From NCBI GenBank assembly GCA_902538915.1, contig CACBGZ010000001.1, positions 245,108 to 309,107 of the forward strand: a DNA stretch of 64,000 nt. Reading direction: 5' to 3'. The notes beneath the pieces were generated by a model. The model saw nothing but the letters and a program-made list of their open reading frames with translations. It ran no database searches and had not been told where the DNA came from. The position numbers and the translations under genes are program-made. Source of the stretch: an uncultured Pelagibacteraceae bacterium. Lineage in GTDB: Bacteria; Pseudomonadota; Alphaproteobacteria; Pelagibacterales; Pelagibacteraceae. Of the stretch, positions 504 to 4,829 are shown in pieces; position 1 is the stretch's first letter; every line of letters starts with the position of its first letter.

Positions 504-1640
504 ATGGCTAAAAGAGATTACTATGATGTCCTTGGCGTACGAAAAGATGCAAGCCCTGAGCAACTAAAGTCTGCATACAGAAAATTAGCAGTTAAATATC
601 ATCCAGACAAAAATCCTAACGACAAAACAGCAGAAGAGAAATTTAAAGAAGCAAGTGAAGCTTATGGTGTGCTTTCTGATAAATCGAAAAAAGAAAACTA
701 TGATAATTTTGGTCACGCGGCTTTCGAGAATGGAGGAGGTGGTCAAGGTGGTTTTGGTGGTTTTGGTGGTTTTGGTGGTACCGATTTTTCAGATATCTTT
801 GAAGATTTTTTTGGAGATTTTGGTGGTAGCAGAAGAGGATCTAGGGGAAGAAGTTCTAATAACAGAGGGTCAGATCTAAGATATGATCTATCAATAACTT
901 TAGAAGAAGCATACTCTGGAAAAAAACAAAATATACAATTTTCAACTTCAGAGAAATGTAATGTCTGTAAAGGAAGTGGATCAAAGCCAGGAACAACACC
1001 TGACAGATGTAGTTATTGCGGTGGTAACGGAAGGGTTCGATCAAATCAAGGCTTTTTTACCGTGCAACAAACTTGCCCTCAATGTGCGGGCAGTGGAGAA
1101 GAAATTACAAATCCATGTTCTAATTGCAACGGACAGGGCAATAATCAAATTACAAAAAAAATCTCTGTAACGATACCAAAGGGAGTAGATGATGGTACCA
1201 GAATAAGACTAGCAGGCAAAGGTGAAGCTGGCACTAGGGGAGGTACATCAGGTGATTTATATTTATTTATTAATGTAAAATCTCATGATTTATTCAAAAG
1301 ATCAGATGTAAATTTATTTTTTGAATTCCCAATATCGATTGCAGATGCTGCACTTGGAACTACAATAGAAATTCCAACTATAGATGGAAAAAAAGCGAAA
1401 ATTAAAATACCTGATGGTACTCAAGATGGAAAACAGTTTAGACTCAAAGGAAAAGGAATGCCTTTCATGAGAAGAGGGGACTTTGGAGACCTGTATGTCC
1501 AAGTAAAAACAGAAGTGCCAGTTAACTTAAATAAAGAACAAAAAGAACTATTAGAACAGTTTAGAAAAATAGAAAATGAAAAATCTAACCCAAGTATTAA
1601 AAAATTTTTTGAGAAAGCAAAAGATTTTTGGAAGAGTTAA
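504..1640 (+). CDS. dnaJ: Chaperone protein DnaJ (Hsp40 co-chaperone)
   Basis: DnaJ stimulates the ATPase of DnaK and delivers unfolded proteins to it in the cytoplasm. The 378-residue protein has the full type I layout. It begins with a J domain carrying HPD at residues 33-35. A Gly/Phe-rich linker follows, then four zinc-binding repeats ([32 protein letters not shown]), then C-terminal substrate-binding domains. The length is normal for the family. It lies directly after dnaK and is probably co-transcribed with it. The Gly/Phe linker is encoded by a short DNA tandem repeat. Confidence 0.98.
747..779 (+). repeat. 9-bp tandem repeat in the dnaJ Gly/Phe linker
   Basis: The unit GGTGGTTTT occurs about 3.7 times in a row with no mismatch. 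It encodes repeated Gly-Gly-Phe in the flexible linker of DnaJ. A unit of nine bases keeps the reading frame, so changes in copy number would lengthen or shorten the linker without a frameshift. Confidence 0.85.
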
Positions 1641-3241: not shown

Positions 3242-4171
3242 ATGAAAATTTTAGGTATTGGAAATGCTATAGTTGACGTTATTTGCAAAGTAGAGGAACG
3301 CTTTTTAGATCAAAACGATTTGGTTAAAGGTAACATGAAATTAATATTTGATCAAAATGAGTTCCAAAATTTATTATCAAGTCTAAAAATTGAAAAAACT
3401 ATCTCGGGTGGTTCAGTTGCCAACTCAATAGTTGGGTTGTCTCAACTTAAAAATGAAGTTGGTTTTTTAGGAAAGATATCTGATGATGATCTTGGAGAAA
3501 AATACGAGATAGGACTTAAAAGTGAAAATGTAAATTATATCTATTCTAAAAAAAAAGAGGATTTACCAACTGGCACCTGTTTAATTTTAGTTACACCAGA
3601 CTCAGAAAGAACAATGTGTACTTTTCTCGGAACCGCGGGAAAAATCAACGAGAATGACGTAAATGTTGATGCACTCAAAAAAAGTGAAATGATATTTTTA
3701 GAAGGATATCTGTGGGATGAAGGCGAGCCAAAAAAAGCATTTGATAAAGCAATTAACCATGCAAATAAAGTTGCTATGTCTCTATCTGACAAATTTTGTG
3801 TGGATAGACATAAGTCTCATTTTTTAGATTTAGTAAAAAATAAATTAGATATAGTCTTTGCAAATGAAGAGGAAATTATGTCTTTAATAAACACAAATAA
3901 TTTTGATGAAGTTATTAATTTTGCAAAAGAAGTGCATAAATTAATAATAGTAACTAGAGGAGAAAAGGGAGCTGTTTCAATTAAGGGGAATAGTGTAACT
4001 GAGACCGGAATTAAAAAAAATTTGAATATAGTTGATTTAACTGGTGCCGGAGATCTATTCGCTAGTGGCTATCTTCATGGTTATTTAAATAATTTTTCTC
4101 AAACAGATTGTTTGGAAAAAGGTACAGAAATGTCTTCAAAAATAATTCAGCAAATGGGAGCAAGACTTTAA
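3242..4171 (+). CDS. PfkB-family sugar/nucleoside kinase
   Basis: This is a ribokinase-fold kinase that transfers phosphate from ATP to a sugar or nucleoside hydroxyl. Conserved features are GGSVANS in the substrate-binding N-terminal half and the C-terminal signature DLTGAGDLFASGY, with the catalytic base at D271. The overall look is close to the adenosine-kinase-like branch found in many alphaproteobacteria, but the substrate cannot be read from sequence. The length of 309 residues is normal. Its TAA stop shares the palindrome TTAA with the stop of the convergent small gene on the other strand. Confidence 0.87.
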   Translation: MKILGIGNAIVDVICKVEERFLDQNDLVKGNMKLIFDQNEFQNLLSSLKIEKTISGGSVANSIVGLSQLKNEVGFLGKISDDDLGEKYEIGLKSENVNYIYSKKKEDLPTGTCLILVTPDSERTMCTFLGTAGKINENDVNVDALKKSEMIFLEGYLWDEGEPKKAFDKAINHANKVAMSLSDKFCVDRHKSHFLDLVKNKLDIVFANEEEIMSLINTNNFDEVINFAKEVHKLIIVTRGEKGAVSIKGNSVTETGIKKNLNIVDLTGAGDLFASGYLHGYLNNFSQTDCLEKGTEMSSKIIQQMGARL

Positions 4172-4272
4172 ATTTTTTTTCTCTTAAAACTACCTTTTCC
4201 TTTTTTTGGTTTGATAACCTTTGGTTTATATCTTCTATTTGATAGAGTCTTGGCTACAGGATTTTTTTTCAA
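4168..4272 (-). CDS. ArfA-like ribosome-rescue factor (34 aa)
   Basis: This short minus-strand frame starts at a TTG overlapping the upstream regulator's stop (TTGA) and ends at 4168, sharing TTAA with pfkB. The peptide is strongly basic. Its segment from NPVAKTL through RRYKPKVIKP to KKGKGSFKRKK aligns without gaps to my memory of E. coli ArfA (LFRQRV..., KKGKGSYMRK). In ArfA that basic tail occupies the empty mRNA channel of a stalled ribosome while an upstream part recruits RF2. The residues before NPVA and the region after the basic tail are absent, so the protein is much shorter than E. coli ArfA. No ATG exists in frame. ArfA family membership is inferred from the motif; function is untested. 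Confidence 0.6.
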   Translation of the reverse strand: MKKNPVAKTLSNRRYKPKVIKPKKGKGSFKRKKI

Positions 4273-4829
4273 TTTATTTTGTATCCTTTTTGTGAATTTT
4301 GTATAAATGCATCATCTCCAAATTTATCTTTCATTTTTTTTCTTAGTCTATAAATGTGAGTTTCTACAGTATGAGTTTCTAAATTAGAAGAATATCCCCA
4401 AACATTATTTTGAAGTTCTTTTATAGTTACATTATTGTTTGATTTGATAAAAATTATCATTTCAACCTCTTTTTCTGTTAAACTTAGTCTTAAATTGTCT
4501 AAAATAATTTTTCTAGAATTTAGGTCTAATTTATATTTACCAATTTTTACATCTGACTTTTTGATAAAGCTGGTCTTTAAAAAATTTATATTTATTATTT
4601 GTATCAATTTATCTAATTTCATCGGCAAATTTTCCAAGACAAAACTATTCTTTAAATCATTAAATTTTACTGAACTCACAATTAGATAATTTTCAAAATT
4701 GTCTAATTCTAATTCTTGGAACTTCTTCTTATCAACATACAAAATTTCAAAATTTAAATATTCGTTAATTTCACTTAATATTTTATATAAAATTTGATAT
4801 TCATAAATTATTAAAATTTTTGAAATCAT
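4269..4829 (-). CDS. OmpR/PhoB-type winged-helix regulator with degenerate receiver
   Basis: The 186-residue protein ends in a clear OmpR/PhoB DNA-binding domain (about residues 97-186), including LSLTEKEVEMI, the recognition region THTVETHIYRLRKKM and the final wing QKGYKI. The N-terminal ~90 residues are short for a receiver domain. Where a phospho-acceptor aspartate would be expected, the strand reads NYLIVSSVK. Phosphorylation control is therefore doubtful. No histidine kinase lies nearby, so it is an orphan. Its start is 11 bp from the divergent L,D-transpeptidase, and its stop overlaps the ArfA-like gene. Confidence 0.8.
   Translation of the reverse strand: MISKILIIYEYQILYKILSEINEYLNFEILYVDKKKFQELELDNFENYLIVSSVKFNDLKNSFVLENLPMKLDKLIQIININFLKTSFIKKSDVKIGKYKLDLNSRKIILDNLRLSLTEKEVEMIIFIKSNNNVTIKELQNNVWGYSSNLETHTVETHIYRLRKKMKDKFGDDAFIQNSQKGYKIN

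Follow-up and report, generated by a model that had tools for sequence, protein, structure and literature searches.

Does a 34-codon reading frame between a regulator gene and a carbohydrate kinase gene of an uncultured Pelagibacteraceae bacterium encode a member of ArfA, the family that frees ribosomes stuck on broken mRNAs, and could so short a peptide still do that work? Within the window, by which we mean the whole stretch of 64,000 nucleotides that was analysed, a sequence-only reading had claimed a frame of 34 residues at 4168-4272 without giving its strand; the frame is present at exactly those coordinates and lies on the minus strand, where it is read from 4272 to 4168, the plus strand not being open there. 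It runs from a TTG start to a TAA stop and encodes MKKNPVAKTLSNRRYKPKVIKPKKGKGSFKRKKI. The TTG (4272-4270) overlaps the stop codon of the preceding regulator gene (TGA, 4271-4269), as had been claimed, in the sequence TTGA (4269..4272, minus strand); start and stop overlap or abut in nearly all relatives, and the overlap probably reflects termination-reinitiation coupling of arfA to the regulator gene. Eleven nucleotides 5' of the TTG, AGGA (4284..4287, minus strand) is a candidate ribosome-binding site by consensus only. The upstream gene (4269..4829, minus strand) encodes a winged-helix (Trans_reg_C) regulator of 186 aa according to Pfam, which gave no match to a receiver domain in this protein. 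At the other end lies a convergent pfkB-family carbohydrate kinase gene (Pfam; 3242..4171, plus strand). The claim that arfA and pfkB have a stop in common holds as an overlap through TTAA (4168..4171), but not literally as one stop: the two TAA codons are convergent, that of arfA at 4170-4168 on the minus strand and that of pfkB at 4169-4171. In the window the frame thus overlaps each neighbour by 4 nt. Directly past the pfkB stop, the strand opposite arfA carries a run of eight T (4172-4179), which stems from the lysine-rich end of arfA and could serve pfkB transcription termination.

A search with the Pfam ArfA model (PF03889) had been proposed as a check, and the window peptide passed it at 27.0 bits (E 3.1e-6), against a curated cut-off of 25.5; in six-frame mode it scored 22.8 bits, just below the cut-off, as did some relatives. 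None of nine composition-matched shuffles of the peptide gave an ArfA match, and all 30 relatives of the first alignment matched PF03889. When a profile of these 30 relatives was searched against 177,635 distinct PDB sequences, the only matches at E<=1 were chains of E. coli ArfA (best E 3.4e-6), aligned gaplessly across residues ~12-44; the set holds many lysine-rich ribosomal proteins, none of which was matched at this threshold. Since this alignment spans residues ~12-44, it covers the RF2-binding middle region besides the tail. Comparison of the SAR11 family with full E. coli ArfA by hhalign gave a probability of 91% (E 1e-6) over residues 11-44. The sequence-only reading was therefore right about a gap-free alignment to ArfA but too narrow in restricting it to the tail, as the whole peptide aligns (E. 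coli ~11-44), middle region included. No NCBIfam model matched any family member.

The gene is the rule in Pelagibacteraceae and is not unique to this genome. PF03889 matches were found in 36 of 61 relatives' genomes, mostly of the same genus, and a family-specific profile matched 220 of 297 Pelagibacterales genomes (119 of the 150 near-complete ones), nearly always in single copy; the named contigs that carry the gene belong to Pelagibacteraceae and Candidatus Pelagibacter. The gene order regulator-arfA-pfkB-nth-dapB is kept and the location is nearly always the same, with the arfA stop a few bases from the pfkB stop in most relatives. Selection was assessed on 142 loci, which comprised 131 distinct DNA sequences and 100 distinct peptides; for this, 65 disjoint pairs were compared. 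They show 696 differences in all, of which 118, 99 and 479 are at codon positions 1, 2 and 3. These differences change 188 amino acids, whereas random placement of the substitutions would change 467±10; this deficit amounts to 27 standard deviations, and in both other forward frames change is in excess. The frame is firmly placed under purifying selection at the protein level, and the proposed check of conservation and protein-level constraint across SAR11 has thereby been passed. Eight residues (N4, L10, K23, K24, G25, G27, S28 and R31) are invariant in the 131 sequences, whose start codons are ATG in 112, TTG in 14 and GTG in 5; peptide lengths in relatives range from 34 to 45 residues, and the ends of the gene are also under control. 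Taken with the profile matches, we regard it as firm that the frame is real and, judged by its sequence, a member of the ArfA family.

These data bear on two explanations that do without a functional ArfA protein. The frame is short, AT-rich and lysine-rich and begins with TTG, and the window holds many chance ORFs of this size, so that a chance frame, or one conserved merely through its neighbours' overlap or as RNA, might be suspected; however, the third-position pattern and the amino-acid change in the 65 pairs refute chance, the overlaps of 4 nt per end run against conservation through the neighbours, and where members of the genus lack the gene, pfkB and the regulator gene mostly meet in a clean junction. 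We consider this explanation negligible. Could the gene act mainly as an antisense RNA to the convergent pfkB transcript? The stops overlap or nearly touch in most relatives, and there is a precedent in E. coli, in which arfA is convergent with mscL and acts on it as antisense RNA, along with further tail-to-tail arfA pairs (PMC10070815). Strong selection on the protein argues against such a main role, as does the ~600 bp that separates arfA from the end of pfkB in some relatives, where antisense pairing would not always be possible. A mainly antisense gene is therefore hardly credible, although an effect on pfkB could be an added role.

Related peptides occur beyond the syntenic SAR11 gene. 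With a profile that includes more distant relatives, matches were obtained in 36 of the 385 alphaproteobacterial genomes sampled; 314 of the sampled genomes are near-complete, and 25 of these matched. A few of the matching genomes are SAR11. In many of these alphaproteobacterial relatives the tail is three residues shorter (KKxYSRK versus KKGKGSYxRK); one short-tail member matches Pfam DUF7230 (PF23876) strongly, the sole PDB matches of a short-tail profile at E<1 were to ArfA, and hhalign of the KxxYSRK-type peptides against the SAR11 family gave E 2e-11. DUF7230-type peptides differ from the SAR11 peptide in lacking the three tail residues GKG, and they are not annotated as rescue factors; in several of them a KH pair follows. 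From these alignments, DUF7230 (loci L271, L276, L285 and others) looks like a family of ArfA type whose tail is shorter. SAR11 genomes without the syntenic copy (type 1) often carry an ArfA-like copy elsewhere (type 2), MSKKRKKLKKKNPMAKLLSSPMLRNKIVKNKKKIYNRKKFKLENE. The type-2 copies (NPMAKLLSSPMLRNKIVKNKKKIYNRKK; loci L300-L331, for example L300 at ~1501-1608, minus strand) are unlinked to the syntenic site and retain the E. coli-like hydrophobic patch; they occur in 22 genomes of the genus and in none of the 156 with type 1. Such a distribution suggests replacement. Mutual exclusion as proof of their equivalence was rejected, because the pfkB tree needs few label changes and so few events do not prove replacement.

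The ArfA module is also found in many marine viral contigs, alone or fused. In one arrangement it is fused to phrog_17747, a conserved domain at the C-terminus (STVNKAGNYTKP...GQWSARKAQMLA; L168:3637-4086, L170, L176, L177, L180, L187, L206, L209 and L217). In another, a conserved KWDGRSRxxxDxYRxxFxxIF segment precedes the phage module (L190, L211, L223, L226, L237, L241 and L243, and L332:15768-15944, which is gp30 of pelagiphage HTVC027P). This gp30 (QGZ17811.1) has been described as ArfA (PMC12753301), and a phage of the alphaproteobacterium Citromicrobium has been reported to encode ArfA (PMC8953757). At its core, NPVAKEVRTPKYKSQIIKPKKGRGSFKR, gp30 has the module seen in the SAR11 gene, but it is phage-encoded, is 58 aa long with an N-terminal KWDGRSR extension and reaches only 20 bits against PF03889, short of the cut-off. 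A tblastn search with the window peptide found no match in 50,697 phage records, although these include HTVC027P, whose gp30 carries the module; the low-complexity filter, which probably removes the lysine-rich query, is the likely cause.

In the gapless alignment M1 of the peptide corresponds to E. coli ArfA residue 11 and I34 to residue 44. Codons 3-15 (KNPVAKTLSNRRY; 4228..4266, minus strand; E. coli 13-25) would by homology form the helix and RF2-contact patch; they include the invariant N4 and L10, and residue 15 (E. coli 25) is aromatic in all relatives. Codons 16-21 (KPKVIK; 4210..4227, minus strand; E. coli 26-31) are predicted to form a strand extending the RF2 domain-2 beta-sheet. 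Codons 21-34 (KPKKGKGSFKRKKI; 4171..4212, minus strand; E. coli 31-44) make up the basic tail predicted to occupy the empty mRNA channel, with residues invariant in the 131 sequences; the tail motif KKGKGS[YF]xRK is present, and the portion past E. coli residue 44 is missing. In E. coli, ArfA residues 31-48 occupy the mRNA channel, residues 25-29 pair with RF2 213-217, and Leu19, Leu24 and Phe25 bind RF2 near Trp319, Val198 and Phe217 (PMC5378476). In this contact region the SAR11 family has an invariant equivalent of Leu20 and keeps the aromatic residue at 25 and Val/Ile at 29; in place of Leu19 and Leu24, nearly all of the 131 sequences have polar or charged residues, and position 18, at which the substitution A18T blocks RF2 activation in E. 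coli (PMC8012679), is Lys. The RF2 of eight Pelagibacterales keeps SPF, the RHTSF strand (E. coli 213-217, including Phe217) and the switch-loop IGWG (Trp319), so that the partner looks ready for ArfA. E. coli residues 1-10 and everything past ~44 have no equivalent in the window peptide. Residues 1-14 of E. coli ArfA become ordered upon RF2 opening (PMC8012679), and the protein still works when cut at Asn47, shorter truncations being inactive (PMC5378476). The peptide had been called minimal and devoid of residues past the basic tail, an apt description: spanning E. coli 11-44, it falls below the shortest active truncation and is smaller than any ArfA that we found shown to work. On its own, a basic peptide of 34 residues would be expected to lack order.

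As for the rescue routes available to these cells, the sequence-only reading had expected ArfB or tmRNA in this clade; tmRNA was found, and ArfB was absent. Alpha-type tmRNA is present in 52 of the 61 genomes and in 18 of 18 near-complete ones, with 224 bits in this genome. SmpB gave no match in this genome's 79%-complete assembly, though tmRNA is present there; the absence is probably due to incompleteness. Complete genomes hold two full-length class-I release factors (RF1 and RF2) by PF00472, with at most two per genome, and one of the 61 genomes has an extra PF00472 fragment. An ArfB-like third release factor was not found with PF00472 in the 61 + 16 genomes, and without a third full-length class-I release factor there is no ArfB; the 34-aa window peptide has no GGQ itself, PF00472 matching only RF1 and RF2. 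In E. coli, a hairpin within arfA gives rise to non-stop mRNA (PMC8012679). A similar element in the SAR11 gene found no support: the ORF contains no terminator-like site, and no consistent fold above shuffles was seen (mean z -0.5 over 60 relatives). Expression from non-stop mRNA concerns the way in which arfA is regulated in E. coli and is not a criterion for the sequence family; with no hairpin element seen, SAR11 arfA may be free of tmRNA silencing.

We propose, with a probability of roughly 0.8, that the product of the gene is a minimal ArfA which brings RF2 to non-stop ribosomes and in this way backs up tmRNA. That the frame is translated, that its peptide recruits RF2 and leads to peptide release, and that it serves as a back-up we infer from homology and from the conservation of the contact residues in RF2. 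Translation would be coupled to the upstream regulator mRNA. On a ribosome that has read a broken mRNA to its end and run off it, the basic tail would enter the mRNA channel, while the middle segment (LSNRRYKPKVIK) would sit in the empty A site and contribute a strand to RF2 domain 2. RF2, thereby held without a stop codon, would open, and its GGQ loop would free the peptide. With ArfB missing, this minimal ArfA would be the sole known back-up to trans-translation in these cells. Several observations count against an active factor: the peptide ends at 44, before the point at which E. coli truncations become inactive (47; PMC5378476); it contains no His, so the Lys-His pair of ArfA and BrfA (PMC6881298) is not kept; two of the three hydrophobic patch residues (Leu19 and Leu24) are replaced, leaving only the aromatic residue at 25; position 18, the A18T site, is Lys; and some complete genomes of the genus have no recognisable copy.

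The changed patch raises the question of whether an ArfA descendant on non-stop ribosomes might recruit RF1, or RF1 and RF2 like ArfT, which can use either factor (PMC6881298). The polar or charged equivalents of Leu19 and Leu24 and the Lys at 18 fit this idea, and type-2 SAR11 copies keep the patch (LLSSPML), so that type 1 differs from its own cousins. We nevertheless consider a change of partner unlikely: the aromatic residue at 25 and the strand at 26-31 are kept, the contacted Phe217 and Trp319 are conserved in SAR11 RF2, and nothing points specifically to RF1 or to another partner. The strongly basic composition, the short tail and the loss of E. coli residues 1-10, which lie in the segment ordered when RF2 opens (PMC8012679), could also describe an ArfA-derived ribosome- or RNA-binding peptide that no longer activates release, such as an inhibitor or a hibernation-like factor. 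Yet constraint is as strong on N4, L10 and the aromatic residue 15, which belong to the helix and RF2-contact side, as it is on the tail; this speaks against a pure channel plug that would not need them, and no ArfB is present to cover a lost ArfA function; this we judge very unlikely.

A minimal ArfA acting through RF2 thus remains our preferred reading. We also advance a more far-reaching proposal, tentatively and with the odds somewhat against it: SAR11, having neither ArfB nor full-length ArfA, may depend on an ArfA of 34-45 residues, which would be the shortest of the natural rescue factors that recruit a release factor. This ArfA would activate RF2 without the E. coli N-terminal segment and tail, and it would not be made from non-stop mRNA and hence would not be silenced by tmRNA. 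Hosts and marine phages would exchange it, or one copy would displace another, as with types 1 and 2 and the phage copies. Published work has reported ArfA in 0 of 2,376 Alphaproteobacteria (PMC11633108) and as 'not present' in this class (PMC10070815), and reviews and surveys restrict it to beta- and gammaproteobacteria (PMC8012679; PMC6881298). What is new, as read from the sequence, is therefore a minimal ArfA in a class that published surveys call ArfA-free; the family itself is known, and the gene is too short for usual annotation. Should the gene function as its sequence implies, SAR11, which ranks among the most abundant bacterial groups of the ocean, would possess a second rescue system that has gone unannotated. 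ArfA would then be much older, or much more mobile, than has been assumed, and the minimal parts for RF2 activation without a stop codon would shrink to ~34 residues. The same module in marine phages suggests that non-stop ribosomes are worth rescuing during infection.

Among known rescue factors, ArfB (YaeJ) is likewise a back-up release route, but it has its own GGQ domain and is absent from the SAR11 genomes searched. BrfA of Bacillus subtilis is, like the SAR11 peptide as we picture it, a small factor that brings RF2 to non-stop ribosomes (PMC6881298); it differs in being made from non-stop mRNA and in having a Lys-His motif, which the window peptide lacks, and PDB searches with the family profiles gave ArfA chains only at E<=1, with no match to BrfA. 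The closest likeness is to E. coli ArfA (YhdL), a protein of 72 aa with an aggregation-prone hydrophobic C-terminus that the SAR11 peptide, at 34 aa, does without. The SAR11 peptide further differs in its lack of residues 1-10, its end at residue 44, its reduced hydrophobic patch, the absence of a detectable hairpin in its ORF, its coupling to an upstream regulator gene and its alphaproteobacterial host. The two share a gapless alignment over ~11-44, the invariant KKGKGS[FY]xR tail, the aromatic residue at 25, the strand region 26-31, a PF03889 score above the cut-off and a tail-to-tail convergent neighbour (PMC10070815), a layout in which the SAR11 gene parallels the arfA-mscL antisense pair of E. 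coli.
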